Source: Amphiura filiformis
Taxonomy: Eukaryota > Echinodermata > Ophiuroidea > Amphilepidida > Amphiuridae
Direction of reading: 5' to 3'
Length of the DNA: 64,000 nt
Assembly: GCF_039555335.1 (NCBI RefSeq)
Contig: NC_092636.1
Span: forward strand, 2,723,464-2,787,463
Positions 25,727 through 63,184 of the stretch are shown one piece after another; the first letter of the stretch is position 1, and every line of letters starts with the position of its first letter. Under the pieces are notes generated by a model, which saw nothing but the letters and a program-made list of their open reading frames with translations, was not told the origin of the DNA and made no database searches. The position numbers and the translations under genes were made by a program.

Positions 25727-26035
25727 ATGGCTGAGTATGCTTCAAATTTTACTTCACTACCTACAGATTTAACATTTCAAAATAGTCCTATTCCTGAAAA
25801 GGATACTTGTGGAATATGTCACAAGGAACTTTCCAATCCCCGCTGTCTTCCATGTAAGCATGTATTTTGTCATCAATGCTTGGTAGATCAATGTTGCACC
25901 AGTGAGGATCCAGAGACAATCATTTGTTGTGTGTGTAACAAATCTTGTCCCAAACCAAAGGATGGAATCAGAGCTTTCCCCTCATCAAGAATTTCAAGTA
26001 GACAATCCATCCGAGGTCTTAGGCCCAAGTACCAG
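25727..26035 (+). CDS. Exon 1: RING finger (C3HC4), start of TRIM-GIMAP gene
   Basis: Encodes 103 residues. The start ATG sits in a strong Kozak context (TTCACCATGG), with an in-frame TAG 12 bases upstream at 25715, so the start is well fixed. Zinc ligands are C28, C31, C43, H45, C48, C51, C67 and C70, with spacing fitting the C3HC4 RING consensus; this domain recruits ubiquitin-loaded E2 enzymes. The exon ends at ACCAG followed by GTAAG, an excellent donor, in phase 0. Reading past this donor gives 24 more codons before a stop, which is intronic. A separate RING exon followed by a B-box exon is a common TRIM arrangement. Confidence 0.88.
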
Positions 26036-29000
26036 GTAAGTTTTGCCAGTAGTAGGTGTATATGCATGGTGCAGCTAATCAATGAAAATGGGCAAGGTGG
26101 CTGGACATAGCCCTGGCAAATTATGTCAACCATAGTAGCATGGTTAACAGTGGTATAACCAAGGCAGTCAGGCCCGTACACAGGATTTTTGGGGGGGGGG
26201 TGCTGATTTTTAAAAGTGGACTTTTTTCCCAAAGGGGGGGGGGAATTTTGTGAAGAGTGGACTTTTCCCCCAAATTTGGACCTTTTTTTACCAAGAAAAA
26301 TGTAAAAACCTGAAAAATTCTTAATTTTGGGACTTTTGGGTCCTTTGCCAAATTTATGTCGCACCCTCCCCCCCTCCATACGGGGCTGAAGGCAGTTGAC
26401 CATGGTTACTGACCAAAGGTTGATCATACTTGGAATCACACATGGTCAACAATTCTTAAGCATACATGGTTGACCATGGTTAGCCCCGTTCATTTGCTGG
26501 CTTGACCACGGAGCTTATATATTCGTGGAGGCGCAATAGATTATGTAAAGCATTGTAACTTTGTGCCGATTAGAAGTTCCGCCAAGCTATTCATTGAGAG
26601 GTACCTTTTGTTCGAGACAAAGGGCTTCCGCCATTAAATCGGTAACTAACCTGACAGCGTATTAACGCGTTACCAGGCAGGCTACTGTCAATAAGTGATC
26701 AAAAGAATGTCATGTGAAAGCGCCCACTTCAGTGAGAGGTACCAATTGTCCTTATTCAATCCCAAGGGTGTGACTGAGTGTTCGCCAGCACACAAAATCT
26801 GTCATATTGTGTAAATGGTATGCTTAGCCTGAGTCGCTCGGCCTATCTCGAACAAAATTGCCATGCGTAGCTGTTGAAAAATGAGAGGATTCGCCGTACT
26901 ATCACGGCAATTTTTAACACGAAGATATAGGGATGATGACGCTGTGCAACATCTGCCCTATAATAATGCTAGCTTTTAGTTGACACCCTACTTTAAAATA
27001 GCCAATGTATATTTGTGGCCTGCTACCACGAAATAAGCGCAAAGTCATAAGTTGGTAGTTTCAAGCACAGATCCTGTTTTGAGACATCATGACTGTTGAC
27101 TTGATGTTCTGTTCACCTGTACAAATGTTGGGCCTAAAAAAGATTTGTATTAACCTTTCCAATCAAATCTGAAGAAAAAAAAATAGGGTAGCATTTATTT
27201 TTTTCACATTTAAATTCATACTGCACAACTCTGGTATATTAAAACCTGTCAAACCATAAACATCATTATTTACCATCACATTTTGCACTGAATTTGTATT
27301 TTTTAACATTGTATGTAACAATGGTGGTGGGTGACATATGTCACAGGGGTAGGTGATGCGTCTAGTGCACATAGTTGTAGTTGTAGATGTAGTTAGCTGC
27401 TGTTTCCCTATCCTTCATTCTTAGCTTTCTACCCTACTAGCGTTCTCCTAGCTTCTCTTCTATCAATCTCCTCGCTTCTCTTTTTTGCTTGCTTGAAACG
27501 CTTCTATACTGCGGATCAACCCAACTTGCCGCTGGCTAGCCGCAAGGCTTAAAAGGGAAGCAAATTATGTAAGTCTTCTCCTGCCAGTACATAGCCTCTC
27601 CTTACTCAAGACTCCTCATGGCCTCCCAGCGGTCACTACCGGGCAACTGGCATCTTGCGATACCAGGCAGACATGAGGGGATCTCGGAGCAACAAGCGGC
27701 CCTAGAGGTGCAGTATGCATGACCCACCGGCGTGTGGATACGCTCTGGTGCTCACCAACGCTTGTCCCAGCTATGGGTTAAATAGCTAAGGTAGTCCACT
27801 ACCTTAGGCGGATTTGGGATCTAATCTCAACAACGGCAAGAGGGTGCTTTGAAGGTAATTCATCGTACAGCCAGTGAACAAAATCAGGGAGTCCTGAGAC
27901 CTGAGCAACAACTTGGCGCTTTTGGTTGGAGACAAAAGTAACAAGTGCAGAGGGCGGATGAAGAAAGAAGCACAACTTTCATTCTCAACGGCCACAGGAC
28001 ACCTGTTGATAGGAGTTGCGACCATCAACAGTACCTACAGCAACTGAAAGACTAACAATAATGGCTACAACCAAAAGCACTAGGGTTAAAGCCCCTACCA
28101 AAGCATCACCTAGCTCGAATCTGTATCACCTGCTGATATTCATGAAGTGGTCACCTTAAAGCCGAAAGGAGGGGTGAACACGGATAGAGGAGGAGTAAGT
28201 GAGTTAAGTAAAGTAAGTAAGTCAAAACTCCTTAAATGTAAGAAGTCGTTGTACATTTCTACTCTCAATACAAGAACAATGAGTAGTATGCATCTTCAAG
28301 AGGAAATATGTGGTCTAGCCAAGTTATACAACCAAGACATTGTTGGAATACAGGAACACCGAATTGTGCACCAAGACGAGGAAATCAGGCATCAGGATCT
28401 TTACGATGGATATCAACTCGTCTCATCCTCTGCTTGGAGAAATACTGGCGGAGTATCCATTGGAGGAGTCGGACTACTGTTAAGCCCAAAAGCTAAGAGA
28501 GCATTTCTATTTTGTAACTCTGTGTCACCAAGAATATTGTGCATGACCTTTGCTGGCAATCCAAGGACTACAGTTATTGTCACCTACTGTCCTACAAACG
28601 TGTCTGAGGAAAGAGATGCAGAACAACACTTCCAGCTACTAGACAGAACGATACGATAAGTTCCAGCCCACAACTTTCTGTTCGTTATGGGAGACTTCAA
28701 TGGTCGTGTTGGCAAGGAATACTACAACTTTCCATATCACGAAACCACCAACAGAAATGGTGAAATGCTTCACAACCTAGCCCTGGAAAATGATCTTGTT
28801 ATCACAAATGTTTGTTTTAGGAAGAAGGAACCACGACTCTGGACGTGTAGCTTACCATCTGGATTTAAGGTACAGATAGATTACATCCTGGTACGCAGAA
28901 AGTGGAGAAATAGTGTTACCAACTCCTGTGCCTACAACTCCTTTGCTAGCATAGGGTCAGACCACCGCATAGTGACAGCCAAAATACGCCTTAGTCTAAG

Positions 29001-32000
29001 AGCTAGTGGTAAAACTCCACCAAGGAAAGTTAAGTATGACTGGAGACAACTAGTACATGATGATGAGCTTCAGGAGCGCTTACACTATTAAGGTGCAGAA
29101 CCAATTCAGTGCACTAAGGAAGAACTGTGATGATAATGTTACAGCAGTGTATGAATGCTTTATCCAGGCCAACAAAGATATTATGGAGGAGCTAATTCCA
29201 AAAGCTAGGAAGCGCCCTAAGGAAGCAATCTGGCATGATCCCAGGATTGAAGAAGCGAGGAGAGAACTACAGCAAGCGCAACTTGTGGACAGCCAAGAAG
29301 TTTCAAGCATATCAAGATCAGAACTGCAGTCTAAGAAGAATCATCTGAGAAAGGTTTATGAAGAGGCAAATGAACAAATCCTAAAAAGAAAGATCAAGGA
29401 TGTGGAAAATTGTAACATCAACTGCCAGCATAAGGCAGCCTGGGACCTCATCAATGAAGTTAGTGGGCGTAAATCTGCTAAAAAAGGTCAAATAAAGGGG
29501 ACACGCATAGGCGAAAAGACTGAATGCTTGGTTCCAACACTTCCAGCAACTACTTGGAGACCCACCAGATGTAACCGATGAGTATGAAGCCATAGATCAA
29601 GTAGACGAAGAGTTCAACATGCGAACTGATGCTTTTGACCAGGTTGAATATGACACTGCCAAAAAAGACATTTCAGAAGGGAAAAGCACCGGTGAGGATG
29701 GGATTCCACCTGAAGTACTAAAACGCTGCAACCTTGATGACATAGTCCTCAACTTCTGCAATGAGGCATTGATGAATGGAAAGAAACCTGACCAGTGGTC
29801 AATTCTCAACCTCATACCAATCCCCAAAAGTGGAGATTTAAGAGAAGGGAAGAACTACAGGAGAATATGTTTGACATCCATCGTAGCTAAAACATTCAAC
29901 AGGCTGCTACTCAATAGGATTCGCCCTTACCTTGACCCGGTCCTGAGATTCAACCAAAATGGTTTTCGACCTGGGAGATCTACGGTGTCACAAATACTTG
30001 CTCTAAGGAGGATAATTGAGGAAGTCAAGAACAACAATCTCAATGCAGCAGTAATATTCATCGATTTCAAGAAGGCATTTGATACCATCCACCGTGGGAA
30101 AATGCTTGACATAATGAGAGCATATGGAGTCCCAGAGAGGCTAGTGGCTGCCATAGGATGCATGTACCATCATACAATAGCTCATGTCACATCACCTGAT
30201 GGTGTCACTAAGGATTTTGAGATCCAAGCAGGAGTTCTGCAGGGAGACACTCTGGCACCATTCCTCTTTATCGTAGTCCTTGATTATGTTCTAAGGAAGG
30301 CTATGGAAGGCAATGAAGAGCGACTTGGCTTTACTCTGGAGCCCAGGAAAAGTAGGCGAATAGGCCCACGCACAATCACAGACCTGGATATTGCAGACGA
30401 TATTGCTCTTCTAGCTGACAACCTCAAAGACGCGCAAGAACTGCTACATCTTGTTGAAGCTGCTGCACAGAAGGTGGGACTAGGAATGAATGCCAAGAAG
30501 ACCAAGGCAATGCTGTACAAGGAAACTCCGTCTTTAATAAAAACACTGGACGGAAGCGAATTGGAGATAGTACAAGACTTCAAATATCTAGGTGCATGGA
30601 CTGCCAGTAGTGAGAAGGACTTCAACATCAGAAAGGCACTTGCTTGGAAAGCATGCAACAGCATGGACAAGATCTGGAAAAGTAATCTACCAAGAGATCT
30701 AAAGATCAAGTTGTTTACCACCACTGTAGAATCGGTACTAACATATGGCGCTGAAACATGGACAATAACAACCAAAATGAGAAAAGCTATGGATGGCTGC
30801 TATACCCGTCTCTTGCGGAAGGCACTAGATATCTCATGGCAAACTCACACCACCAACAAAGAACTATATGGGAATCTGTTACCAATCTCTGAGAGGCTCA
30901 GGATTAGAAGGTTAAAGTTTGCAGGGCACTGTGCAAGAAGCGAAGAGGAAGCGGCTTCACGTGTTCTTATGTGGCAGCCCAAACATGGAAAGCGAACAAG
31001 AGGTGCACCCAAGAAGGATTATATCAAGATGTTGGCAGATGATACAGGATTAACTGGCCCAGACATCAAGAATTGTATGCTTGACAGAGCAGTTTGGAGA
31101 GCCATTATGGGAGTCCGACTACAAGAGTCGACATAAGCAAGTAAGCAATGTAACAAAATATTTTAAAAAATTCTTAAATGTGCATTGCAAGGGGTACAAA
31201 AAGTACAGGTTAGAGAAGTTCATAGCAGGTGCAATTTTAGGGAGAATTTTTGTCAGAAAACATGGTTTTAAAATTCATGCCATTCCAGAAAAATACAGCA
31301 CAAATTTTGTGGGATTACAAAATATTATCCTGTTTGCCAAACAGAACATAGCTCAATCCTAATTCTTTAATAGTTCTAACTGGCAATAAAAGTGAAAGTT
31401 TACTAGTGGCAAATGGTGGTCATAGACCACAAACCTAGCTGGGGCATGTTGGTGTTGTGGAGGTATCTGACCCCTACAAAATGATCCAAAAATGCTCCCC
31501 CGGTCATGAGGTTTGTTGTCACCGAGTTTGAGTCCCGTACATGTACTCCATACAGATGTCCAAAAAATGCAATTCTATGATTTGACCCCAGATGACCTTT
31601 GACCTGACCTCTGCATGATGTTCCATAATGTTCCCCTGGTCTTGAGGTTTGTTGTCACCGAGTTTGAACCCCGTACCTCTTACAGATATCCAGAAAATGA
31701 AATTCTACGATTTGATCCCAGATGACCTTTGACATGACCCTTGCATAGTGTTCCAAAATGTTCCCCTGGTCAGTAAGTTTGTTATTATGGAGTTTGAGCC
31801 CCATACCCCTTACAGATGTCCCGAAAATGCATTTAGAAAATTTGACCTCTACATGACCTTTGACCTGACCCCTGCAAAATGTTCCCCTGGTCACGAGATT
31901 TGTTCTCACTGAGTTTAAGCCAATACCCCTTACAGATATCCAGAAAATGAAGTTATATGATTTGACCACAGATAACCTTTGACCTGACCCCTGCAAAGTG

Positions 32001-35000
32001 TTCCAACATGTTCCCCTGATCATTAAGTTTGTTGTCACCAAGTTTGAGCCCCGTACCCCTTACAGCTGTCCAGAAAATGCATTTCTAAAATTTGACCTCA
32101 GCATGAACTTTGACCTGACCCCCGCAAAATGTTCCCCTGGCCATGATATTTATTGTAACCAAGTTTGAGCCCATACCCCTTACTGATGTCCAGATAATGC
32201 AATTGCAAGATTTTACCCCCTTAATGACCTTTGACCCCAATTCTATGTACAAGTTATAGGCGTGTGGTATAGCCGATGCATATGTGCAAATGACGTCATT
32301 GTGCTGTTTAATATGTGGCAGAAGAAGCATTTTGAAGATATTTGGTTAAATACCAGAAATGCCCTTTAATGACCTTTGACCCCAATTCTGTTTAGACCCT
32401 ATGGGTACTGGACATAGTCGATACATATGTGCAAGTTACGTAATTGTAGGGTGTAACATGTAGGAGGAGAAGCATTTTGAAATTTGTTGACAGAAGAAAG
32501 AAAGAAGCATCAGATAGCATTACAGTACCTAGCCAGCTAGCTGGGGGTGTAAACCCCCAGCTAGGTAAATATGGAAATAATGCTGTGACAATCAAGCCCA
32601 AACACAGTACTAAGACTAATTTCAGGTTATGCAATTTATATTTTGCAAAACATTATTTTCTCATATATTTTAGAACCAATTATCAAAATTACCATAAATA
32701 CACTAAATTTACGAACATCTCATAGCTATAATCCAAATTTTAAATGCTTAGACTTGTGCCAAGTCTTTTAATTTTGTGACTGCAATTGTAAGAAATCCTG
32801 CAAAATTGCATGTTTTTGGCCCATTTGCTCTCAAATTGCAAAACTATTAAAATTTTAGAGCTAACTAAAAATTAAGATTTAGCTATGTTTCATTTGGCGA
32901 AACAGTAATATTTTTTTAATCCCAGAAAATTAGTGCTGTATTTTAAAATTAGTGCTGTATTTTTCTGGAATAGACTACAGGTTTCATATTAACAAAAACT
33001 TTGGACCCTCTTGAAAACTTTAAAGTCAAGTATGTGCAAGCATTATCATAGAAAAAAGTTACTTATTAATTAGTCGGTTTTCTGTTTAGTCACCATTTGT
33101 GACCCATCATATCAAAACAGCAGATTTTATTGAAAATGTACATTTAGATTTCTCAACCAAGTTAAAGGCCTGCTTTTTCCTCCTTTAAAATGAGATCTTA
33201 TAGATAGACATTGATATCAGATGCACTCTATATTCCAGAAAAATACACTCTCAGAACATTGGTTACAATTTTAACCAACTATGTGTTCACAGGTGAACAG
33301 CCCAACAGTTGGTTATATTGTTAACCAACATGGGTTGGTTAACAACAGCGTTCGAAATTTTGGTTGTCCGTTCGCCCGGGACAACAAAACAAGTCGCCGG
33401 ACAACCAAGAATACTGATTCGGTTGTCCACCGGACAACCATAAATATGTAGCCTTTGTCACCGTTGTAGGCCTACAGACAACCAAAACTTGAGACGGACA
33501 ACCAGAAATTGTAATCTGGTTGTCCGTGGGACAATCATTTATTTTTCCTTAATTCGAACACTGGTTAACAATATAACCACAGGTTAGTTAAAAACATTAA
33601 CCAACTACTGGTTAACATTTACGGTAACCAACCAGTTGGGCAAAGCATGTTGGGCAAAATATAATCAATAGTTGGTTAAACACTATGAATGGGAAGTTCA
33701 TTTCATTGTTCATATTTTAACCAATATGTTGGTTAGTTCAGACTCAGGTTAAATGAGTACACAATGGATTTCAATTGAGACATTTGAAGGTAGGAAATTA
33801 TATTATAAAGTACATCATTTTATCGGGTATAACACTTAGTTTAAGTGTGTGCGAGGCCGAGACTGTGAGCAAGACTTTATCGACGACAGCTACCACCACA
33901 ACTGGTAAGCTTAACAGTTGGTTAAGCTTACCGGTTGTGGTGCTAGCTGTCGTCGATAAAGCATCATAAGTCTTGCTCACAGTCTGGTCTCGCACACACT
34001 TAAACAGTTCGCAATGGAACACCATGTGACCATGGTTGGGCAAAACCATACTTTGCCCAACTTTATTAGCGGGAAAAGGATGTTCTTCACCAAGGTTGAT
34101 AATTTTGAACTCTGTGTAAATACCATTGACAGGTTTGACCATCCATGTATTAAACTGTATTTTGCCCAACTTCAAGAATCTTAACCATTGTTGGGCATTT
34201 TTTAAGCAATTGTTTTCTGCCCATTCTTTTTTTATCCAATTTTCTGAGAGTGTACAGCACTAATTTTGTTGGATTAAAAATAATATTATCCTGTTTTGCC
34301 AAATGAAACATAGATAAATTCTAAGCTAGTTCTAACCGACAATGAAATCAAATTTTAATATTTGGTAAATTTTTGGAAATATGGGCCAAAAACATGTGTT
34401 CATTAGGCAGAGGTACCCTATTTGACGTTAGCTTTGGACATTTAATTATTTTATTGAATTTTCAGCTAGGTAAGTCCGGTGGAAAATAAAGAAGATAATT
34501 AAATATCCAAAGGTAACACTAAATAGGGCGCCATTGCCTAAATCTAATGTTTTAGGCGTTTTCATATGCTGTTACAAGCCCAAATACTGTACTTGTACAA
34601 AGACTAATTTCAAGTTATGCATTCTAAATTTTAAAAAACACATTTTCTAAAAAATACACTAAATACTGAAATTATGAGCTAACTCTTAGCCTATGCATGT
34701 ATTAGAAGATAGGTTTGTGTCAAGTCTTAAAAATTTCGTGACTATATACAATTCTATCAAATTAAAAAAATATATTAAAATTTGACTTTTATTGCCATGC
34801 AGTTAGAACTTAAACTAAACATGCTAAAGGATTAGGATTTAGCTATGATTTCATTTGGCAAAACCCCGGGCAAAACAAGATACCGTACTGGCGCGACTAT
34901 GGTAATATTTTTTTAATCCAACAAAATAATAGGTTTTGATCTGATTTAACACTTTACTCCAGTCGGGGTCACTGGGGTAAGGGGAATTTGATGGCGGCTG

Positions 35001-38000
35001 TCGCGTTCCAAATGTGTCCAAAAACGTTTTCTCTATGAGAATATATTTTGTTAATTTTATTTCGGCTGAGATCAAAGGTAACTGGTGTTAATTCTGAAAC
35101 AAATTCAAACGCTCAATAAAAGGCAACTTGATGGAGTGTCATCCATGATTAGCAAAATCTTTGTGTCCTTGTCCTTTTTGCCTTTCTCGGTCTGAGGGTA
35201 ATTAGTAATTTTTCTCGAATAGGGAGTAGAATACTGATTTTATTTGGTAAGTTTTTTTGTTTGTTTTTTCAAATTATATATTTTCTTTATCTCAAAGGTG
35301 GTGCTAGGACAACTGCCTTGTTTCGATATGATAGGTCACAAATGATTAAAATCACAAATATTTTCAAATCTAAAAATAAGTCAACTTAACAGTATCATGA
35401 GTCTGGACTTTGACTCACAAACAAGAAGATAAAGAAAACCATGGGAAGACAAAATAATATTTAGACCATTCATTTCTACTTCAAAGTCAATCAGCGAACT
35501 ATTAAATATTAAAAGATCTAATTTTTGTTTTGTATTTTTGGGAAAAAATCCATATCTTCAATACGAAAGGTCAAAATTTTCAATTGATTGTTGGCTTTTC
35601 ATCCCAGCTGCATACACTTTAAGTACATATCATTAGATTTAGAAAGTTTACTTTGAGGACTGTTAAATATCAAAAATATAAAATTTTAATAATTTGTAAT
35701 AAAATTTGTATTATATCTCAAATTTCAAAAAATCCAAATTATTTGATATCAGAAGGACATTCCTGGTATTCAGAATGCAATTTCATATGCCTGGTGTACT
35801 CTCAGCTTCCATAAAAAATACCGTGTAAATGTTAATATCTGATTCCTTAAGATTTCTTAGTTTTTTTTGGTTTTTTATGATTTTGTGCCCCCAAGAGGAC
35901 TCTGTAGGTCCTACATTTTGTGGTTCTGGAAGGAACATTCAGTAATAAATTTAAATGCTCCTTTAATTTGTTAAATAGACCTAGCTTATATCTTTCTGAT
36001 TCTAAAATTCCTTCATAAAATTAGTATTATATCGCAAATTTCCCTTCAGAAAATCTATACTTTGACTAAATTTCTCATAATCAGAATTCAATTCGATATG
36101 TCTGATGTGCTCTCATGTCCCACAAAAAATGCTATCGAAACATTCATACCAGAGCCCTTAACAGTAAATCTGAAATTGCAAGTCATTTTTGTTCTTTTCA
36201 GCCACTTTAGACGCCCTAAATTGATTTCATCCCTAATGTAATGTTGCAGAAAACAAATCACATGTTTCTCACTTGGTGTCATTTTAACAATTTTCAGAGT
36301 CTCCGTTCATCAAACAAGAGAGAGTTATGCAAGGTTCACACTCTTTCACAAATGTCAAACGATTATTATTGTCACACATGTGAAAAGCCCATCTGCAGAG
36401 ATTGTTCAAACTTGAAAACCATGTGCCGTGATCATCATACAGTATACTTGAGTGATGCAGCAAAAGAGCATAAAAAAATCTTAGAGGACAAAGCTGAACT
36501 GCTGGCATCTAAACAAAAAGAAGTTAAAGATGCCATAGCTGAGATCAACTCTTTTCAAAGAGGATGTGCAGTGGCGGTAGAGGCAAAAGTACAAGAAATA
36601 TCCAGAGAAAAACAGCAGCATTCCAGCAAGTTTGAAGAAGCAGCAAAGAAACAACAGCAAAGACAAAAAGAGATAGCCAAAAAGCTTGCTGAAACAACAG
36701 CAGAATTATTTGAAAGAGAGATTCAGCTGCAACAGGCCATAGAAGAAGTTTCAAGAACAAAGGAGTGTGAAGATGACCACTTTGTGTCTGGGAAGTTTGC
36801 CAATCTTGTAAAGAATGTAGAGAAGTTAAGTCAAATCCAACCCAAAAAGCTGACTGAAGATGAAAAAGCTGAGTTGCGGGACATTGGGAATATTGCAGAT
36901 ATGCCTCTTCCGGATGGCAGTTACAAGATTCAAGGCAAGTAATTTTGAAAAGATCATACAGGGTGTCCCTGAAAGAACTGTGTCGTCATAAACATGCCAC
37001 AACTAAACATAACTAAATAACTGATGTGGTTGAGGTCGGAATAAATTAGCTATCACATACTTTTTGAATTTTGACAATTGACCACACCATTTTTAAAATA
37101 TAAGAATTTTGAAACTCCCTCATTTTCACATCTTTCCACCGATTCAAATATCAATCGATGATCTGTATTCGGAGTGCTAATCACTGCGCATCATCAGCGC
37201 ATGAGGTGTCTATATTGTCTTTGATAGATATTTGACTCCATGGAATGGATTGAAATGAGGTAGTTTCGTTAAATTCTATTATTTCAAAAACGGAGCGGTC
37301 AATTGTCAAAATTCAAAAAGTATGTGATAGCTGATATATATTCCTGAACCATATCGGTTATTTAGTAATGTTTGGTTTATTCATTAAAATACACAAACAA
37401 TTCAGTTCCCGATGATACAGTTCTTTCAGGGACACCCTGTAACCATGATTTCCTATATAGAAAATAGCAAATTTCATAAATGTATATAGCCTACTTTTAA
37501 TGAAAAATGAAAACAGCAACTAAGCATATAGCTTAGTTATTATTTTAAAAAGATTAGAAGGCCATTTGCCCATGTCTGAAAATCTTCAGGCTCACTGCAA
37601 AAACAGTGTCTAGAAAGTGAAGGCAAGAATGTGTTTAGAAACATTATGTTTAGAATATGGATGTCAGATGTTTAGAAATTGAACACCATCACTGACCAAT
37701 AATCAGAAATTTGACACATGATGTTCAACTTCTAAACGTGTTTACAAAGTGAAGGCAAAATTGTGTTTAGAAAAGTGTTTAATTTTTAAACACTGTTTTT
37801 GCAAATGTTCACTATGCAGGTTTTTGCCCGAGGGTCCCACATTATTTCTAACACTGTCTATATTTATCTTAATTTCTTAGGTGTGGATACCTTACGTCTG
37901 ATTCTCATAGGCCTCACAGGGGCTGGGAAAAGTACTACTGGCAACAACATTCTGGCACCTGCTTACCTATCCAAGGAAGCACCGCAATATGGCAAAAGTG

Positions 38001-41000
38001 GTATGTGGGGAACAATAAAACGTCCTTTGAAGATTAGCGCAAGTGGAGGTTCTGTTACTTCAAAATGTGAAAGAAAGAAAGCTCAAATTCAGGGTCGCTT
38101 GGTTACTGTCATTGATACTCCTGGATTCTATGATACTAAGAAGAATTATGAGAGCACCATCACTGAAATCCTGAACTGCATGTATCTCTCAGCTCCAGGC
38201 CCTCATGCTATTTTGCTTACCATTCGGTTAGGACGTCACACAGAAGACGATATCAAAGCGGTTGAACTCATGAGATGTATGTTTGGCGAAGATTCCATCA
38301 AGTTTCTCATGATTGTCTTCACTGGAGCTGATGAGTTGAAGCTTAATGATGAAAATATAGAAGATGTGGTTGCAAATTTAGAGGGGCCAATTCAAGATTT
38401 ACTGCATAGATGTGAATATCGGTATGTACCTTTTGATAACAAAGCAAAGCCTCTGTCAGGAGAGAATTCAAACCAGATCAGCAATCTCTTGACAATGGCT
38501 GAAGATATTGCCAAAAGTAATGATGGAAAGTGCTTTAAGGATAATCTGTCCTCCAGGGTAGCAGAAATGATAGAAAAGAAGCTTAACCAAACACAAGAGC
38601 AGATCAAGACACTGACACAGATGAAGATGGAACTTGAGAAGAAACTAAAAGAAACTGAAAGAAAACTGAAGGAAGGAGAAAATCTAGCAGAGATGGAAAA
38701 GGCTGAATTGAGGCAACAAATAGAAGACCTGAAAAGCGAAATAGAGGAAAATAGAGAAGATGCTTCATGAACGGACACTTGCATCAGAACAACCAAAAGT
38801 CATGTTGATAGAAGATGAAGCAACAGTTGGCATGGTTGGAGGTAAGTTTTATTGTGGGATGTAAACTGATGCAAATATCTTTAGCTTTGAGTTCCAACAC
38901 TGACCATGAACATATGAGATCTAGGCTTGTCCATGAAAAATACAGTACTATTTTGAATTTGCATTGTTATATTAAATCTAGAAAGACTGAAAGCCGAATT
39001 ACCTTTATATATTACAAGTTCACAGAAATATACACAATTAACACACTTGTCTATAATTTGAAAAAAGTGAATTATTTATTGGAAATATATATTGCTTGAA
39101 CATGTAAAATACAAATGATGATAATCACTGCTTTATGATTACTACAACAGAAATTCTATTCTACTTGCCTTTTCATGACAAGAGAGACTATAAAAATTCT
39201 GTATTACATTCTAGAAAAACCAAGGCCGAATTACCTCTTCCAAGATCACACAAATATACACAATATTAACACTATAATTAAAAACAAAATAATTATTTAT
39301 TGAAAGCATAGGATGCTTGGACAATGCTTTTGTACATAAAAAATGAATCACTGGCAAATCAAAATTAGCATCATGCATTTTTAGAAGGTGAGCAAAAGGT
39401 AGGCCAACTTTTAAGGGGGACAAACTTTCACAAAAATAATGGTAAAAAATGGGCTAAAAATACAAAAAAAAGGCCTAAAAATCTAAAAATATCAGGGCGG
39501 CCAGCATCCCACAGGTGGAAAGAGGGGGCAAGACTTCTCACGGGGAGGGAGGGGGGAATCATTATATAAACACAGCCAAAATAAAAAGTCTCCACTAGTT
39601 CCATCCCCATTTAATCAGAGCCTGATGAGTTTATGGCAAAATAATTCATCTAATAATTTTCTATACACTTTCCCTCGCAGGTTGATATCAAATTTGATAT
39701 CAAAAGTTTAATCATCGTGAGCGCTGGAACCGTTGTTTGGAAATTCGTGCAATTTTAAAAATGACATAGGGAATTGTATCACGTAGCAGAGCTCGCGTGA
39801 GTGCCAAGAATTACGTCGCCTGAATAGGCCGGCAGGTTAATGGTTTCCCCATGCATGTCAAAATGCAAGTCACAATTGTGCACAGGCAAGTGTACAACGA
39901 TTCCTGTACGGGTTGCTTTAGGCCACATAATAAGCTGATACCATGCATTGGATTTTGCGTGGTCAATTCGTAATTTGTCATTTTTGAAATTACACAAATT
40001 TCCAAACAACGGCTCCTCTGCTCACGATGATTAAACTTTTGATATCAAATTTGGTATCAACCTTTGAAGGAAAGTGTATAGAAAATTATTATATCAATTA
40101 ATTTGCCATACACTTATCAGACTCTGATTAAATGGGGATGGAAAGTCTACACAAATGTGTCATTATATGTGCCTACACACCAAAAAATTGATTTGTATCA
40201 AAAGTAATCAATGTAATAAGAACAATAATTTGGATGATGTTTGTGCAAGCTCAGCCTCAATTGCAAATCTAAGCTGGGATAGCCCTTTCCATGGGACAAT
40301 TTGGTACTCTTTGACATTATAATTTTATAGGACATGTAGGATACAAACTGACAGCCCATTTCAAGAAAATGGTTTAACATACCTTTTTTCCCATCTATGT
40401 ACCTCAATTTCTTATAATGTTTTATGTTGAGATGCATGTTTGTGGTAATTTAATAAGTAAATAATAATTATTGAAAATACTCTGTTTGTCTCTGACCAAT
40501 TGTAATAGATTTGGAGAAGAGACTACAAAAAGCTGAAGATGCAGGCAATGAAGACCGGAATCAATTAGAGGAAAAAGTAGCAACTCTGGAAGCCCAGATG
40601 AAAGAAAAGGATAGGACAATTAAAGAACAAGTTAAGGAGCTTCAAGAAAAAGACACAAAACTTCAGGAACTGCAAGATCAGCATGGAGCTGTTCAGGAAA
40701 ATGGAGGCAGAGAATTGGAGAATGCTCAACATGATGTTAATGGTAGGCCTATAAATAAGTGATGACCTTGGGACTACAATTATTGAATACCAGTGAGGAA
40801 GAAGGGCACAACTCAATCAAAACTTTTTTTTTGAGATATTAAGAAAAAACTAATATTTGGAAAAGTTTTAGAGACATAATGTTTTCAAGGTTTTCATCTT
40901 CAGGGGACCTTACATACATGTGAAATCATGATGTTCCCATAGCATTAAAGGTACAGATCTTGAATACAAGCCAGAGTTTAGGCCTTTTCCCACTAATATA

Positions 41001-42875
41001 CTACAAGTGGTAGTTCCATAAGCAGATGTGTTACAAATAGCTACAGAAATTTGTAATTATTTATTACTTGCACAAGTAGAAGCATGTAATACATATAAAA
41101 TGTTAACAAGAAAGTTTATTGTAGTGAAAAGCAGATTTCAAGGATAAACAAAACTCCACTTTAACCCAATATTTGTGGAAGAAAGGGCCAACTCCATGGA
41201 GTTGGGCCTTTCTTCCATGAAAACCATGCATGATACTTGCATGGAAGACTATTTAGAGAGTGGATTTGGGCCCTTCTTTCACACACAGGGAAGAACTGTC
41301 TGCTGGCAATAAAATGCTGGGTCTAACTCATGTTTGTAAAAAAGTGGAGTTGGGCCCTTCTATATACTTAGGTTTTCAATTACTTCATAAACATTGCTGC
41401 TGATTATTCCTCACAAAAAATGTCAAAAGTATGTATACCAAAAACTCGCATTATGATTTTGATTTAGGCCCTTCACAATTAATTCTTAGTTTCCTGTTTC
41501 ATGGTTGAAAACCAGGGATGAGGCGACTTTTAATTATTAATTATTAATTATCTTTTATTTTCTTTGTTTTAAAATAAGTGGTCGCAACCTACATCAAGCC
41601 ATTTTGACAAGGAGCATGCATTTAATTATTTTACTACTATGTTTGATTTTATACATAAGTAATGGTACAATTAGGTTCTATGTTTATTCATCATTATAGA
41701 TGATATGATTAAAGTCAGAAAGTAGCAAATGGTAGTCATTAAAAGTTATTTTTAAAGAGAAAATCCAAAATATAAATAAAATAATTAAATATTTTGCAAT
41801 TCTCTACTTTGGACGCGGGCGGGAAACAGGAAACTAAGAATCAATTGTAATTGGCCTTATAGCTCAACCTCTTTTATTTGGCCATGATGGGACCACGCTC
41901 TGGCGATGGATAAGTGAAAAATCTGGATAAATGAATTTTGTGTAATTCTGCATTGAAAGATTATGCAACACATGGTAATAATACTGAAAGACAAGCCCGT
42001 AACAAGGGGGCTGGGGTGGACTCCCACCCCCCAAAAAAAATGGTTGGCCCTGGTTAAGGGCCTGCTGAAAGATGATATTTGAGTGACATTTTATGCAACA
42101 TAGATGTCATTCTGAAGGTGCCAAAGCATTAAAAAAACATTTCCTCAAAATGTCCACATCTGGATAACATTAACAGAGAGATCTGTATAAGTCTAGATAT
42201 TAAAGGGAGGTTGAACTGTAATATGGTTCTAGTGCAATGATGATCTTGGATATGCAGGGAAACGAAATCGCCATGCCATTATGTGCTGTGCCTATATCTA
42301 GAAAGTGTTAATATATTCAAATGAATTATATTAAATAGAGGGGGGGGGGGGGTGACCTAATTTAAAGGGGTAACCTTATTAGTTTAGAATATGGATTGTC
42401 TTCAAACTTGCATACAATTTCAAATATTGTCCCCTTTATGCATCTATGAGAAAACAAGAACATTGTCAGCATAAATGTGAATAATTAGCACAATTAGCAA
42501 GCCAATATGTTGGCTATACATTTTAGTCTGACATCCCGAAACAACACTGTGTGCCAAGTCATGTCCCAATGTTTAGCCATACCACTACGCCCAAATATCA
42601 TTCTTAACAAAATATCTCATAGTTTTTGATTTAAATCTCCCCTGAAGTATAATATTCACCCCTGAAGTATAATATTCACCCCTGAAGTATAATTCGCCCC
42701 TGAAGCCCCTTTTTAATCATTTTTGCCAATGAGAAAAATTGCAGCGAAGTGGGGGGTGATGATGCTGTCGATCGGGTTACAGACCCTTAAATTAAGACAC
42801 AAAAATTCAATTATTGATTTTGCAGATGTGCCACCTGAGGAAGGAAAAAAAGGTTTTCGCTGTTTCATCCTATGA
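25727..42875 (+). CDS. TRIM-GIMAP chimera: RING, B-box, coiled coil, AIG1 GTPase, coiled coil, CaaX (five exons)
   Basis: Gene model joined by hand from exons 25727-26035, 36298-36934, 37881-38841, 40509-40742 and 42826-42875. Introns are about 10.3, 0.95, 1.7 and 2.1 kb with phases 0, 1, 1, 1, and each junction keeps the frame. Discounting one extra base near 38750 gives 729 codons and a stop. Order by residue: RING 28-70, B-box 114-150, coiled coil about 158-285, AIG1-type GTPase from 317 with P-loop 326-334, helical C-terminal coiled coil, terminal CFIL. From family knowledge, RING plus B-box plus coiled coil is the TRIM ubiquitin-ligase core, and AIG1/GIMAP GTPases are immune-associated and oligomerise on membranes. 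The fusion, with a prenylation signal, suggests a membrane-anchored E3 ligase controlled by nucleotide binding; that role is inferred. No transcript evidence is available, and an unseen small exon cannot be excluded. Confidence 0.85.
26168..26390. repeat. G-run-rich dispersed repeat
   Basis: Starts at GGCCCGTACACAGGATTTT and has runs of 9-10 G alternating with AAAAGTGGACTTTTTTCCC-like words. Similar G-rich, GGACTTTT-containing fragments occur at 4345-4474 and 46311-46470. Noncoding. Confidence 0.5.
26818..26955 (-). repeat. Dispersed repeat, inverted copy of 13665-13800
   Basis: About 135 bases, from the word TGCTTAGCCTGAGTCGCTCG through GAGGATTCGCCGTACTATCA to GATGACGCTGTGCAACATC. The reverse complement is at 13665-13800 with few differences. 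Function unknown. Confidence 0.7.
28147..29091 (+). pseudogene. LINE endonuclease domain (EEP, APE-like), broken
   Basis: Exonuclease-endonuclease-phosphatase fold motifs in order: LYISTLNTRTM, IVGIQEHR (catalytic Glu), MGDFNGRVG (catalytic Asp/Asn) and SIGSDHRIV (catalytic Asp-His). In the element's life cycle it nicks the target DNA to prime reverse transcription. A TAA at 28657-28659 interrupts the frame just before the GDFN motif; both sides are in the same frame, consistent with a CAA to TAA change. The frame is lost again at 29091. Confidence 0.85.
29057..29581 (+). pseudogene. LINE linker between endonuclease and reverse transcriptase
   Basis: Continues the polyprotein in another frame after the break near 29060-29091. 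It is a Lys/Glu/Gln-rich helical linker (AIWHDPRIEEARRELQQAQ, then AAWDLINEVSGRKSAKKG), typical of the region before the reverse-transcriptase fingers. A second frame change near 29540-29619 leads to the reverse-transcriptase frame. Confidence 0.75.
29619..31136 (+). pseudogene. LINE reverse transcriptase (RVT_1), open over 505 codons
   Basis: Motifs: LIPIPKSGDLREGKNYRRI, NGFRPGRSTVSQILALR, motif A FIDFKKAFDTIH, motif B AGVLQGDTLAPFLF, motif C DIADDIALLAD (catalytic Asp pair), then FKYLGAW and a thumb. The C-terminal part has RRLKFAGHCAR followed by a basic tail. No RNase H follows. The catalytic residues appear intact although the upstream endonuclease is broken, so the copy could act only in trans. 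The first ATG is not necessarily the natural start because the frame is continuous with the linker before the second frameshift. Confidence 0.9.
31492..32245 (+). repeat. Minisatellite, about six monomers of about 125 bp with DR1-like words
   Basis: Monomers start near 31492, 31631, 31760, 31883, 32010 and 32130 with variants of GTTCCCCTGGTCATGAGGTT, followed by TTACAGATGTCCAGAAAATG. Most contain GACCTTTGACCTGACC. Divergence between monomers is moderate. It directly follows the LINE in intron 1. Confidence 0.85.
32246..33243. other. Intronic AT-rich DNA, no feature
   Basis: Contains GCTAGCTGGGGGTGTAAACC/CCCCCAGCTAGG as a small palindrome near 32536-32565; otherwise nothing recognised. Confidence 0.5.
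33244..34254. mobile_element. About 1-kb non-autonomous DNA element with TACACTCTCAGAA termini
   Basis: The left end TACACTCTCAGAACATTGG is inverted at the right end as CCAATTTTCTGAGAGTGTA. The interior holds many GGTTAACCAACT-type words, a GGTTGTCCG/CGGACAACC patch (33355-33540) and a long hairpin (33839-34004). No coding capacity. Confidence 0.7.
33839..34004. repeat. Long near-perfect hairpin nested in the 1-kb TIR element
   Basis: Arms of about 75 bases, with GTTTAAGTGTGTGCGAG on the left and CTCGCACACACTTAAAC on the right, and TAAGCTTAAC/GTTAAGCTTA at the centre. One arm carries an extra AGCATCATA. Small reading frames here on both strands encode mirror peptides and are artefacts of the palindrome. 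Confidence 0.85.
34255..35529. other. Intronic DNA, no feature
   Basis: Related in part to 32600-33000 in opposite or diverged form (CAAATGAAACATAG, TTGGATTAAAAATAATATTA). No gene. Confidence 0.45.
35530..35850. mobile_element. Right half of a TTAA-type foldback MITE
   Basis: Shares AAAGGTCAAAATTTTCAATTG, CCCAGCTGCATACACTTTAA and GGTGTACTCTCAGCTTCCAT with the copies at 16643-18030 and 51368-52026. It ends at GTTAATATCTGATTCCTTAA, the inverse of the start of the 16.6-kb copy. The left half is missing. Confidence 0.75.
36040..36160. mobile_element. Terminal fragment of a TTAA-type foldback MITE
   Basis: Contains GATATGTCTGATGTGCTCTC, ATGTCCCACAAAAAATGC and ends ACCAGAGCCCTTAA, matching the right ends of the 2.2-kb and 51.4-kb copies. 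It lies about 140 bases upstream of exon 2. Confidence 0.65.
36298..36934 (+). CDS. Exon 2: B-box zinc finger and BBC coiled coil
   Basis: Starts after an ATTTTCAG acceptor in phase 0, matching exon 1, and encodes residues 104-315. B-box ligands are C114, H117, C128, C131, C136, C139, C146 and H149 or H150; C146 stands where type-2 B-boxes usually have His. The run from YYCHTCEKPICRDC to RDHHTVYL is highly characteristic. A long charged heptad-like helix, rich in K, E, Q and A (about 158-285), follows and should drive antiparallel dimerisation as in other TRIMs. The exon ends at CAAG before GCAAGT, a GC donor with leftover phase 1. A GT four bases further on gives the wrong phase for exon 3. 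Confidence 0.88.
36935..36940 (+). promoter_or_regulatory. GC-type 5' splice site of intron 2 (GC-AG intron)
   Basis: The sequence is CAAG then GCAAGT, the textbook GC-AG donor with otherwise perfect U1 pairing. Ending exon 2 at 36934 leaves one base (G), which with GT at 37881 forms a Gly codon directly before VDTLRLILIG. The nearby GT at 36939 would leave two bases and break the frame of the GTPase exon. Confidence 0.75.
36959..37439. mobile_element. Foldback MITE in intron 2, TA-flanked, CAGGGTGTCCC termini
   Basis: The left CAGGGTGTCCCTGAAAGAAC is matched by GTTCTTTCAGGGACACCCTG on the right, with TA on both sides. Interior arms (CACATACTTTTTGAATTTTG) also pair. The TA duplication suggests Tc1/mariner-type mobilisation. 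It fills half of the 946-bp intron. Confidence 0.82.
37881..38841 (+). CDS. Exon 3: AIG1/GIMAP GTPase domain and start of C-terminal coiled coil (frame broken)
   Basis: Begins after TTTCTTAG in phase 1. Nucleotide-binding motifs: G1 GLTGAGKST (326-334), G3 DTPG (394-397), the AIG1 conserved box LSAPGPHAILLTIRLGR with HTEDD, G4-like TGAD (463-466) and a G5-like YVPFDNKAK. This order and the conserved box identify an AIG1/GIMAP P-loop GTPase rather than Ras, ARF or dynamin. It continues into a K/E-rich coiled coil. In the frame as given a TGA occurs at 38768-38770. From 38760 another frame stays open for 27 codons to the GGAG/GTAAGT donor at 38841 and leaves the phase exon 4 needs, so a one-base insertion in the A run 38748-38751 is likely. 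Sequence upstream of 37881 is intron. Confidence 0.87.
38748..38751 (+). other. Frame lesion in an A-run within the TRIM-GIMAP coiled coil
   Basis: Four A residues follow GAGG. With three, the helix reads on as IEEIEKMLHERTLASEQ and the frame runs through exons 4 and 5 to a CaaX stop. With four, translation ends 19 bases later. This could be an assembly error, an allelic null, or less likely a slippery site. Confidence 0.7.
39601..40141. mobile_element. Foldback element in intron 3
   Basis: The left CCATCCCCATTTAATCAGAG pairs with CTCTGATTAAATGGGGATGG on the right. Inner arms TTGATATCAAATTTGATATC and CCGTTGTTTGGAAATT also pair across the centre. Noncoding. Confidence 0.78.
40509..40742 (+). 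CDS. Exon 4: C-terminal coiled-coil segment of TRIM-GIMAP gene
   Basis: Acceptor TGTAATAG at 40508; entry phase 1 joins the G left by exon 3 to AT, forming Asp. It encodes 78 residues with a strong heptad character (LEKRLQKAEDAGNE, LEEKVATLEAQMKEK, VKELQEKDTKLQELQDQ). The exon ends at AATG before GTAGGC, leaving phase 1 for exon 5. Reading through the donor gives only seven more codons before a stop. Composition and helix type match the end of exon 3, which supports one continuous coiled coil. Confidence 0.78.
41466..41858. mobile_element. Foldback element in intron 4
   Basis: The left CTTAGTTTCCTGTTTC is inverted on the right as GAAACAGGAAACTAAG, flanked by GGCCCTTCACAATT and AATTGTAATTGGCC. 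A second short palindrome lies at about 41176-41218 (AAAGGGCCAACTCC/GGAGTTGGGCCTTT). Confidence 0.75.
42635..42705 (+). repeat. Short tandem repeat CCCCTGAAGTATAATATTCA, three to four copies
   Basis: Directly repeated 20-base words in intron 4, decaying toward the right (CCCCTGAAGTATAATTCG, CCCCTGAAGCCCC). Confidence 0.85.
42826..42875 (+). CDS. Exon 5: C-terminal tail with CaaX prenylation motif, stop of TRIM-GIMAP gene
   Basis: Acceptor TGATTTTGCAG ends at 42825. Entry phase 1 joins the G from exon 4 to AT, giving D, then VPPEEGKKGFRCFIL and TGA at 42873-42875. The last four residues, CFIL, form a CaaX box. Terminal Leu normally directs geranylgeranylation by GGTase-I, and a small basic patch (KK, R) precedes it. 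This predicts membrane attachment, as known for some GBPs. The exon is short, so its identification rests on the acceptor, phase and motif together. No canonical polyadenylation signal is clear close downstream. Confidence 0.68.
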
Positions 42876-43352: not shown

Positions 43353-43775
43353 CACGCTTGGCGGAAACTTGTGAATGTGAAGGACAAGCAACCGAAGGAC
43401 AAACGCTCAAACTTAGTGTATGGGGTTGTGTGCGGTGATACCGATTGCTCTGCGGCTTATGTTGGAGAAACCAAACAGGCGTTAAAAACCCGCATTGGTC
43501 AACATAGGAGACCAAGTACCAACGAAGCCCAAAACTCTGCTGTTTACCTCCATTTAAAGGACACTGGACACTCAATTAAGAACGAGGAAGTTGTTATTCT
43601 TGATAAGGAGGAACAATGGCATAGGAGAGGCATAAAAGAAGCCATTTGGGAACGCATTGAGCCACCGTCACTGAACAAGAAAGGGGGACTCAATTTATCT
43701 CATGCATGGGACCGGGCCATCGGGTCGATACCTAGCCGTCTATCACGTGACCAGTCCAACGGGTCAGTTGCCTGA
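43353..43775 (+). pseudogene. GIY-YIG endonuclease domain of a Penelope-like element (partial)
   Basis: An open frame after a TAA at 43350 encodes about 140 residues with no natural start. Visible motifs are LVYGVVCG, then the diagnostic YVGETKQALKTRIGQH (GIY-YIG strand and catalytic Arg), VYLHLKDTGH and EAIWERIEPPSLNKKGGL. The Cys-bearing region before YVGET is typical of Penelope-like elements rather than of UvrC or homing enzymes. The endonuclease would nick target DNA for retrotransposition. The reverse transcriptase that should precede it is absent, so this is a 5'-truncated relic. Confidence 0.82.
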
Positions 43776-53050: not shown

Positions 53051-53323
53051 ACAATCAAGGAATTTAATAGTTGGTACACCTTGACAATATGTTGGAACTC
53101 TTCATTGCTGCTCTGATAGTTGAGTGAAATTAGTATAACTATGTTTGATGAGAAGTACATACCTTCTCCTTTCCCCTTCCCTCCCCCATCCCCCCTCAAT
53201 CAATGTTGGGGAGACTGGAGAGCCCAATGGAAAAAGTGCTGTCATCAACATTGAACTGGGGGAGAGGGGTGGCGATTTACATTTAGTATGCCCGAGTGTG
53301 CCAACATAAATTTCTTTGATTGT
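53051..53323. repeat. Spacer copy 1 of the 2.58-kb array, with internal hairpin
   Basis: Bounded by the inverted words ACAATCAAGG and CTTTGATTGT. The pyrimidine-rich CCCCCTCAATCAATGTTGGG can pair with CAACATTGAACTGGGGGAG downstream. The same hairpin theme recurs in the diverged spacer at 58487-58757. Confidence 0.75.
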
Positions 53324-53888
53324 CCGAGGCGAATGTAAAATATTTCATATATATTTCGTTTTTGTCTCATAACTCAAAAACGGAATGTCGCATGAGCTTC
53401 ATATTTCACACAATTTGGGAGTGGATTATAGGCCTTTGAATTATAATAAATTTGTAAATAAAGAAATTGGTTTATTTAGGGAGTGGTCATTGAAATGCCC
53501 CCTATGCTAAATTAAACACATTTTGTGATGGGTCTAAACTGCATCTAAAATTGGTTTTTGGTCCATATCTTTAAAACAAAAGCATGTATTACAACCAAAT
53601 TTTACACATTTTGTTATGATGATATGTTTCCACTTCTATCAAATGTACAGTACGATATTCACTCAATTACGGGAAATACAATGCAAATATGTAGCACACC
53701 ATGTAAAGCTATGTGAAAACCGACGAAGGTCAAATAAGCTGCAAAATGGTGAAATTTTGCATTTTAGCTCAAAAAAAGAGTTTGACAACACAGAAAAAAG
53801 GACCACGAACAAACTACTAAGGTTTTGTTAATGGTATTAATCATTGAGAGAATAGCGTTGAACGTTATCAAGAAGAGATAAAAATAAA

Positions 53889-53957
53889 TTGCCGGGGTTC
53901 GAACCCGGTACCTCCAGATCATGGGCCACATATCACACCATTGGACTATTATGTGCA
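53889..53957 (-). tRNA. tRNA-like segment in array copy 1, minus strand (degenerate)
   Basis: The minus strand has an A-box-like TAGTCCAATGG and a perfect T arm, CCGGG-TTCGAAC-CCCGG. The acceptor ends do not pair and the anticodon arm is poor. It could still act as an internal Pol III promoter. The copy at 56469-56535 has a damaged T arm. Confidence 0.4.
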
Positions 53958-54353
53958 ACTGTGATTAAGGCTTGAATCATTGTACTAATACGTTAAAGAT
54001 GTTAAACCATGACGCAGCGTATTGAATACTTTTTTTCTGTAACTATTGTGTAAACTGAATAAATTATGCTCTATGCATGAAGTTTTGCGAATTGACTCGG
54101 TAATCCACGATATATATTCATATTGTGTACAGAAACACCTCAAAATATAATGGCGTTGCTCAGTAACTGACGATATACCTCGATAATCCACCAAAAAAAA
54201 CATGTCTATTCTTTTTCTAATGATATAATGGATTACCGTGCAATTGCTATTGAATTCAATAGGTTTGTTTTGGAATACCGTTTGCTTGAATGACCCTGCA
54301 ACTTTATGATGACAACCATTATGACTTAAAAATGAAAGACCATTTTCACGTCG

Positions 54354-54424
54354 ATCCGTGTAGCTTAATGGTAGCAGAGGTCGCTTCATAATCGAGAGGT
54401 CCACGGTTCAAAACTTGGCGCAAT
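54354..54424 (+). tRNA. tRNA-Met-like segment in array copy 1 (degenerate)
   Basis: A box TAGCTTAATGG, D stem GCT/AGC, a well-formed anticodon loop TTCATAA (CAU), and a B-box GGTTCAAAACT. Three anticodon-stem pairs form, the T stem has mismatches, and the acceptor ends do not pair, so a functional tRNA is unlikely. Confidence 0.45.
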
Positions 54425-55630
54425 TTTTTGTTTGTTTCCCACTCAAAAGGTTACTTGTATTGGAATTGTTAATTTGGCCAAACTTATCTGAATGACAATG
54501 TTGTTATTATTTTTTTCTTTGATTTAATATATCTGTCTTTTTGATTGATTTATATTTCCGGTGTTTCCTTATTGATAACTTAAATTACCGGTTCATCATG
54601 TTTGAAATGGATGGAAACTGTACCTTTTATTCTGTCATCAATACAGTTATAATATATATATTTTAAAGATAAAATGGTGAATGATATTAACAATCCTTTA
54701 TGGAAATAAATGAAGAAAGAACAAAACAAGTTAAACACATTTAACAGTTCAAGTTCTTATCACTGCGGTTACGTATACGCATTGAACCATGCTGTCTACT
54801 GAAGATAACTAATACATAATTATGTAATGAATGATTTATGACCAATTCCTGACTTTGTTATATTATTTGTTTTCAACAATAATTAGGCGTTGAATTAGGA
54901 CAACCAAATATTCGTATACAGCAATTCGTGCTAAATTAATTACGATAATTAAGAAGAAATATGCAACAGCGTGTTAATATACGCCTATTGTTAGAAAACG
55001 TGTTTATTTGGCCTATATAAAACTCAGCATTGTGGATGTTTTCAATAACCACTCCCTAAACAAACACATTTCTTTGCCGTCTAAAGTTTGTAACATATTT
55101 CAAAAGGAAAGTAACTACTAAAAACTTGTGAGTAACAACAGTTTGATACGACCTCCCGTTTTTTAAGATATAGCACCAAAAAAAAATAACTTTGCGCGCG
55201 ACAGCTTAGAGAACTAATCATGAAATTGGTGTAGGTTAGGGTATGGGTTGTTTCGCTGACCGCTCCCTAAAAAAAGCCAATTTCTTTATCAACAATTTTA
55301 TTAAGATTCCAAAGCATATGGTATAGTCCCATATCGTGTGCAATATGAAGTTCATATGACATTCCGTTGTTGAATTATGAGTTCAAAACGAAATTTAGAT
55401 GCATATTTTACCGTTTAGAGCCTAATACGAAAAATGACGTAATTTAGCATAGGAGATGCTTTCAGTGACCATTTCTAAATAAACCAATTTATTTATCAAC
55501 AATTTTATACTCATTCTAAAGCACATGGTCCACTCCCACATCGTGTGCAATATGAAGTTCATACGATATTCTGTCGTTGAGTTAGGAGACAAAAACGAAT
55601 TTTAGATGTCATATTTTGCGTTCGCCTCGG

Positions 55631-55903
55631 ACAATCAAGGAATTTAATAGTTGGTACACCTTGACAATATGTTGGAACTCTTCATTGCTGCTCTGATAGT
55701 TGAGTGAAATTAGTATAACTATGTTTGATGAGAAGTACATACCTTCTCCTTTCCCCTTCCCTCCCCCATCCCCCCTCAATCAATGTTGGGGAGACTGGAG
55801 AGCCCAATGGAAAAAGTGCTGTCATCAACATTGAACGGGGGGAGAGGGGTGGCGATTTACATTTAGTATGCCCGAGTGTGCCAACATAAATTTCTTTGAT
55901 TGT
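55631..55903. repeat. Spacer copy 2 of the 2.58-kb array
   Basis: Same length and ends as copy 1, with one visible change in the hairpin arm (GAACGGGGGG for GAACTGGGGG). Confidence 0.85.
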
Positions 55904-56468
55904 CCGAGGCGAATGTAAAATATTTCATATATATTTCGTTTTTGTCTCATAACTCAAAAACGGAATGTCGCATGAGCTTCATATTTCACACAATTTGGGA
56001 GTGGATTATAGGCCTTTGAATTATAATAAATTTGTAAATAAAGAAATTGGTTTATTTAGGGAGTGGTCATTGAAATGACCCCTATGCTAAATTAAACACA
56101 TTTTGTGATGGGTCTAAACTGCATCTAAAATTGGTTTTTGGTCCATATCTTTAAAACAAAAGCATGTATTACAACCAAATTTTACACATTTTGTTATGAT
56201 GATATGTTTCCACTTCTATCAAATGTACAGTACGATATTCACTCAATTACGAGAATCACAATGCAAATATGTAGCACACCATGTAAAGCTATGTGAAAAC
56301 CGGCGAAGGTCAAATAAGCTGCAAAATGGTGAAATTTTGCATTGTAGCTCAAAAAAAGATTTGACAACACAGAAAAAAGGACCACGAACAAACTACTAAG
56401 GTTTTGTTAATGGTATTAATCATTGAGAGAATAGCGTTGAACGTTATCAAGAAGAGATAAAAATAAAT

Positions 56469-56535
56469 TGCGGGAGTTCGAACCGGTACCTCCAGATCAT
56501 GGGCCACATATCACACCATTGGACTATTATGTGCA
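56469..56535 (-). tRNA. tRNA-like segment in array copy 2, minus strand (degenerate)
   Basis: Equivalent of 53889-53957, but the T arm reads GCGGGAGTTCGAACCGG on the plus strand, losing stem pairs. Decay after duplication suggests no selection on tRNA function. Confidence 0.35.
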
Positions 56536-56929
56536 ACTGTGATTAAGGCTTGAATCATTGTACTAATACGTTAAAGATGTTAAACCATGACGCGTATTGA
56601 ATACTTTTTTCTGTAACTATTGTGTAAACTGAATAAATTATGCTCTATGCATGAAGTTTTGCGAATTGACTCGGTAATCCACGATATATATTCATATTGT
56701 GTACAGAAACACCTCAAAATATAATGGCGTTGCTCAGTAACTGACGATATACCTCGATAATCCACCAAAAAAAAACATGTCTATTCTTTTTTCTAATGAT
56801 ATAATGGATTACCGTGCAATTGCTATTGAATTCAATAGGTTTGTTTTGGAATACCGTTTGCTTGAATGACCCTGCAACTTTATGATGACAACCATTATGA
56901 CTTAAAAATGAAAGACCATTTTCACGTCG

Positions 56930-63074: not shown

Positions 63075-63184
63075 TGCGCTAGCATAGTTAATTGATGGTA
63101 GGGCTATTGTTCTCCATAAAATATCACCATAATAGACACGATTAAAGTTATCAAAATTATTGATTACAGACTTAATGTACGCAA

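Follow-up and report, generated by a model that had tools for sequence, protein, structure and literature searches.

A candidate TRIM–GIMAP gene in the brittle star Amphiura filiformis, with RING, B-box and coiled-coil exons upstream of an AIG1 GTPase

The window analysed here is a stretch of 64,000 nucleotides from the brittle star Amphiura filiformis. Between positions 25,727 and 42,875 its + strand encodes a RING, a B-box, a coiled coil, an AIG1 GTPase and a second coiled coil, in the order that a sequence-only reading of the same DNA had claimed. When exons 1–3 are spliced, they give a product of 611 residues with the architecture RING–B-box–coiled coil–AIG1–coiled coil, which ends at the TGA at 38768. 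The explanation that we favour, with a confidence somewhat better than even, is a single gene, in which the C-terminal sensing domain of a TRIM was replaced by a GIMAP GTPase in a lineage-specific manner, by exon shuffling. The TRIM–GIMAP chimera proposed earlier is upheld for the order of the domains in the DNA and for exons 1–3, while two observations speak against its full form: another A. filiformis protein, P0007, reuses exon 1, and the reading frame is interrupted ahead of exon 4.

Organization of the locus

The animal DNA of the window contains introns and the remnants of transposons (Table 1). An Rfam scan of the window gave no match, and a Pfam scan of 10 further open reading frames (ORFs) in it gave a single one, to a LINE fragment.

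Table 1. Features of the TRIM–GIMAP locus and other elements of the window; positions are those of the whole window, and a slash marks the exon–intron boundary.
Feature	Position	Strand	Description
Exon 1	25727..26035	+	103 aa, C3HC4 RING (C28-C70), ACCATGG start, donor CAG/GTAAGT, phase 0
Intron 1	26036..36297	+	10.3 kb, decayed LINE inside
Decayed LINE, intron 1	28114..31136	+	endonuclease-like ORFs and reverse transcriptase ORF (RVT_1 6.3e-32), frames split
Tandem repeat	31467..32236		about 130 bp, six copies
Exon 2	36298..36934	+	B-box2-type zinc finger, then a long coiled coil; phase 0 in/1 out, GC donor AAG/GCAAGT
MITE-like insert, intron 2	36957..37441		31-nt terminal inverted repeats (94%)
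Exon 3	37881..38767	+	AIG1 GTPase and coiled coil, AIG1 frame
Frame-change stretch	38745..38767	+	where the frame must shift to reach the exon 3 donor
TGA stop, AIG1 frame	38768..38770	+	closes the 611-aa product
Likely exon 3 donor boundary	38841..38842	+	GAG/GTAAGT, phase 1 in the other frame
Exon 4	40509..40742	+	coiled coil, phase 1 in/out, weak donor ATG/GTAGGC
Exon 5	42826..42875	+	C-terminal 16 residues plus stop; ends in CFIL, a possible CaaX box
ORF just 3' of exon 5	43353..43775	+	GIY-YIG match below threshold (E = 0.008); possibly a Penelope-like element
Tandem duplication	53051..58504		near-identical copies, period about 2.58 kb
Tandem duplication	58775..61861		near-identical copies, period about 2.43 kb
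Second LINE fragment	62164..63469	-	zf-RVT 2.3e-6

The TRIM-like exons

Exon 1 encodes a complete C3HC4 RING with all eight ligands present. A relaxed regular-expression scan of the six frames finds a single full C3HC4 pattern in the whole window, and a RING arisen by chance was rejected on this ground. The exon matches Pfam zf-RING_UBOX with E = 8e-4, under the curated cut-off, and in a sequence search its best relatives of solved structure are TRIM2 (3.6e-8) and TRIM56 (3.2e-7). The window RING reads CCVCNK, the TRIM relatives CPECRK, a Pro and a linchpin Arg being usual in the TRIM RING signature. Since the window RING has neither of these two residues, its E3 activity may be altered.

The B-box of exon 2 is matched weakly by Pfam (E = 0.052, under the curated cut-off); among solved chains, TRIM-family members account for all seven matches at E ≤ 1e-3 and for 11 of the 12 at E ≤ 1. 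Residues C11, H14, C25, C28, C33, C36 and H46 of the exon are invariant in an alignment with 14 TRIMs, and the zinc ligands, read by eye, are all kept, with Cys at one His position. The predicted structure of exon 2 is confident only for a long helix (residues 44–156), which is the coiled coil following the B-box, and the B-box part itself has a pLDDT below 60. A Foldseek search with this model gave no match at E ≤ 0.001; its first four rows are KAP1 (two rows), another TRIM ligase and a TRIM25 coiled-coil complex, a likeness to the TRIM fold which is not independent, given that the structure was predicted on a TRIM alignment. A protein search with exon 2 alone gave no match at E ≤ 1e-3 among 2174 candidates.

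The best solved relatives of exons 1 and 2 are TRIM2, TRIM3 and TRIM56 (TRIM-NHL class), together with other TRIMs. The window differs from these three in the presence of an AIG1 GTPase in place of the filamin/NHL part, in the lack of B-box1 and in a RING without the CPxCR signature.

The AIG1 GTPase

A GIMAP-type GTPase with a P-loop, a DTPG motif and the AIG1 conserved box had been proposed, and the analysis bears this out: exon 3 matches Pfam AIG1 with E = 1.8e-48, and its best solved relative is human GIMAP7 (2.7e-38). The G1, G3 and G4 motifs are all present, and the P-loop GLTGAGKST, DTPG, the APGPHAILL..LGR box and FTGAD are intact. The conserved box, which lies between G3 and G4, reads APGPHAILLTIRLGRHTEDD in the window and aligns with PGPHAIVLVLQLGRYTEEE of GIMAP7. 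Within it, the Arg of LGRHTEDD (R119 of exon 3, R434 of the product) is invariant in all 11 aligned AIG1 proteins, and by a hand count against GIMAP7 it aligns with the residue that we take to be the trans-acting R103 of that protein. In the structural model of the exon (mean pLDDT 82.7) a helix spanning residues 223–295 forms the coiled coil adjoining the AIG1 domain, and GIMAP chains fill the top 20 Foldseek rows.

Like the GIMAP/IAN GTPases, the window therefore has a full AIG1 domain, the GIMAP fold and a C-terminal coiled coil, but its GTPase sits behind a TRIM motif, and the P-loop helix is followed by about 20 inserted residues, an insert shared by the proteins P0001, P0034 and P0004. 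TRIM23/ARD1 is a TRIM with a C-terminal GTPase of the ARF type. A TRIM followed by a C-terminal GTPase is common to TRIM23/ARD1 and the window, the GTPase being ARF in the former and AIG1 in the latter; an ARF-type TRIM was rejected here, as AIG1 is the best of the 15 Pfam rows for exon 3 at E ≤ 0.1 and Arf is not among them.

Relatives in the brittle star, in fishes and in other animals

Among the matches listed, the closest named relatives are proteins of A. filiformis. The N-terminus of P0007 is identical to exon 1 at 85 of 104 residues (82%), with the same KYQ boundary; past the RING exon it carries two CPQC..CLVC repeats and two TAZ fingers, and neither a B-box nor AIG1. P0007 is, in its own right, an odd RING–TAZ protein. 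In a tblastn search of the window it matches exon 1 only. A RING exon common to two kinds of gene suggests either an exon duplication or that exon 1 belongs to a RING–TAZ gene. P0004, also of A. filiformis, combines AIG1 with Hint, and its AIG1 domain is 39% identical to that of the window; P0007 and P0004 each share one half of the architecture with the window and neither has both. The contigs that encode these two proteins are equal in length, at 70,254,058 bp.

The order of the domains had also been said to match no known named family. No combination of RING, B-box and AIG1 was found among the matches of either protein search: with the whole query, AIG1 is listed by Pfam together with RING or B-box in none of 33 matches (best 7997 candidates scored), and with a RING + AIG1 query the 19 matches (best 4345 candidates scored) are all listed without RING. 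Searches of the open-licence literature likewise turned up no description of a protein with RING, B-box and AIG1. The claim of novelty has nevertheless to be narrowed, for the B-box + AIG1 half is, by its listed domains, already known from fishes, without RING, and hence is not unique. P0045 and P0046, both of Salvelinus and both among the 19 matches just mentioned, list B-box and AIG1; in a Pfam scan of eight of the 19 matches and P0012, the B-box lies above the cut-off in these two and just below it in P0047 (Scleropages) and P0049 (Anguilla). In all four teleost proteins one or more B-box fingers precede AIG1, as in the window, but, unlike in the window, no RING is listed. A 26-row AIG1 tree (midpoint root) groups the window with P0001 and P0034 and then with P0004, both forks at 100/99. 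This tree led us to reject a shared origin with the B-box–AIG1 proteins of fishes: the fish fusions appear to be independent of that of the window, because their AIG1 rows lie apart from its clade.

P0001 and P0034 are encoded on contigs of 1.6–1.7 kb. Virus contigs were scanned with exon 3 and exon 1; of the 22 and 4 pattern matches, respectively, none was confirmed as a relative. An NCBIfam scan of three proteins gave no informative match.

AIG1 has entered other mosaics too. In the snail Biomphalaria its partners in shuffling include death, CARD, kinase, ARM and Hint domains (PMC7053062), and in lancelets CARD and Hint (PMC12373286); AIG1 shuffling is thus shared with the window, but no TRIM motif is named in the relevant passages of the two sources. 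In PMC8195603, an AIG or a TRIM domain is described as a variable component of TRADD-N proteins. P0038 of the ark shell Tegillarca combines a RanBP zinc ribbon with AIG1. As a separate observation, P0037, another RanBP-ribbon–AIG1 protein, ends in CSIM, a possible CaaX box, which its near relative P0038 does not have.

One gene, two genes or a decaying copy

Five exons in matching phases had been claimed for the locus, and for the first three the claim is correct: phases are 0/0 at the junction of exons 1 and 2 and 1/1 at that of exons 2 and 3. The donors of exons 1 and 2 each agree with the consensus at 9 of 9 positions, and exon 2 is the only later exon compatible with the phase-0 donor of exon 1. 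In the joined product, RING and B-box are 44 residues apart, in TRIM-like order and spacing, and of the 14 TRIM proteins found with the whole query (P0020–P0033) 13 match both exons in TRIM order, the fourteenth, P0023, matching exon 2 only. The phase-matched exons predict RING, B-box and coiled coil in one polypeptide, with P0007 as a counter-example; the membership of exon 1 in a TRIM–GIMAP gene is plausible, not proved, because the same exon also heads this unrelated RING–TAZ protein. Exon 1 could indeed be the start of a gene like P0007, with its remaining exons outside the window, and exons 2–3 (with 4–5) a B-box–coiled coil–AIG1 gene that has another start. This division into two genes, which we consider rather unlikely, would fit the retention of exon 1 to the residue in P0007 ahead of its TAZ fingers, the length of intron 1 and the fish proteins that have B-box and AIG1 without RING. 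It is opposed by the lack of any further P0007 match in the window, by the TRIM-like B-box exon with an in-phase RING upstream at TRIM spacing, and by intron 1 itself, where none of the five GT donors scoring at least 8/9, the range to which the count applies, closes an ATG-started phase-0 exon. The boundary could also fall further downstream, with exons 1 and 2 encoding a short TRIM that ends at TAA 36940 and exon 3 belonging to a separate GIMAP gene. Intron 2 is a GC-AG intron and GC donors are rarer than GT donors; moreover, the TAA follows the GC donor directly, in frame, and an AATAAA lies at 37040. We nonetheless hold a short TRIM to be very improbable: the GC donor is a full consensus match, exon 3 opens without Met at a phase-1 acceptor, and the single AATAAA is no signal, because the 8.1 kb scanned contains 23 instances of AATAAA or ATTAAA. 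At the start of exon 3 P0001 is similar (...SLGVDTLR, against ...FLGVDTLR in the window), and the shared LGVDTLR would be explained if P0001 kept the same acceptor.

After exon 3 the claim of matching phases fails. The AIG1 frame stops at TGA 38768, past the second coiled coil, while the donor after 38841 (8/9 consensus), whose phase 1 fits exon 4, lies in the other frame; exons 4–5 are for this reason not reached in the given sequence, and need a change of frame by mutation, allele or error. A break of the frame would lie within about 38,745–38,767; failing that, residue 611 is the end of the protein. The other frame is closed upstream by a TAG at 38742–38744 and open thence to 38841, and its codon score is 0.39 against a 99th percentile of 0.20 for intron sequence, on a score for which exons 2 and 3 of this gene served as the training set. 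This coding-like tail, the donor at its end with the phase of exon 4, and the continuation of P0001 and P0034 in the alignment for about 33–36 residues beyond the TGA site suggest a decaying copy, that is, a former five-exon gene with its frame broken at the end of exon 3, or else an error of sequencing or assembly. We regard this as a possible reading, though a doubtful one. The G motifs and zinc ligands are all intact, nothing is missing from the 611-residue product as far as the second coiled coil, and the other-frame tail is not significantly like P0001 or P0034 (72 and 473 of 500 shuffles, respectively, score as high).

The last two exons carry further reservations. The donor of exon 4 agrees with the consensus at 6 of 9 positions, and exon 5 codes for 16 residues only; if reached, it would end the protein in ...GKKGFRCFIL. 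A CaaX box with terminal Leu is of the geranylgeranyl type, and CFIL is a possible box of this kind, on weak evidence. Of 200 acceptor-like sites in the window, one leads to a CaaX-type end, a background counted with a pyrimidine-fraction filter of 0.6 that the exon 5 acceptor, at 0.57, falls below, and the evidence is weaker still since several downstream acceptors could have been picked as the start of exon 5.

A possible mechanism and its significance

If the locus is the single TRIM–GIMAP gene that we favour, a TRIM2/3/56-like gene would have supplied the exons for RING and for B-box and coiled coil, joined via a phase-1 intron to an AIG1 exon, and one transcript would run across them. The coiled coil, if antiparallel, would form a dimer with RINGs at both ends. 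Upon GTP binding, the AIG1 domains of neighbouring dimers would pair via the face of the conserved box, as in GIMAP2 and GIMAP7, and this pairing would stack TRIM dimers on a membrane or on a target, bringing RINGs together for the ubiquitination of a captured substrate. The stack would then come apart on GTP hydrolysis, in which the conserved LGR arginine would act in trans. GIMAP2 dimerises upon GTP binding and GIMAP7 stimulates GTP hydrolysis by itself and by GIMAP2 (PMC8201404); the RING activity of TRIM2 and TRIM3 depends on self-association (PMC9732051). The earlier proposal, in which nucleotide binding of the GIMAP kind governs how a ubiquitin ligase assembles, can be built from these parts, and such a protein would have E3 activity, a GTP-gated assembly and, perhaps, an immune role. 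A bolder extension, which we consider quite improbable, is a class of membrane-anchored, GTP-switched ligases of the brittle-star lineage that would combine a TRIM motif, a GIMAP domain and a geranylgeranylation box, with membrane assembly activating the RINGs and with RING starter exons dealt to AIG1 or, as in P0007, to TAZ.

A survey did not find AIG1 in the sea urchin Strongylocentrotus (PMC3723955), whereas it is present in an echinoderm here, in the window and in P0004 of A. filiformis. That P0007 carries the RING exon as well would be an instance of exon shuffling among immune-type genes. Few effectors of GIMAPs are known and, if the fusion to a ubiquitin ligase exists in nature, it would be a direct sign that a GIMAP switch can control ubiquitination, testable in one polypeptide.
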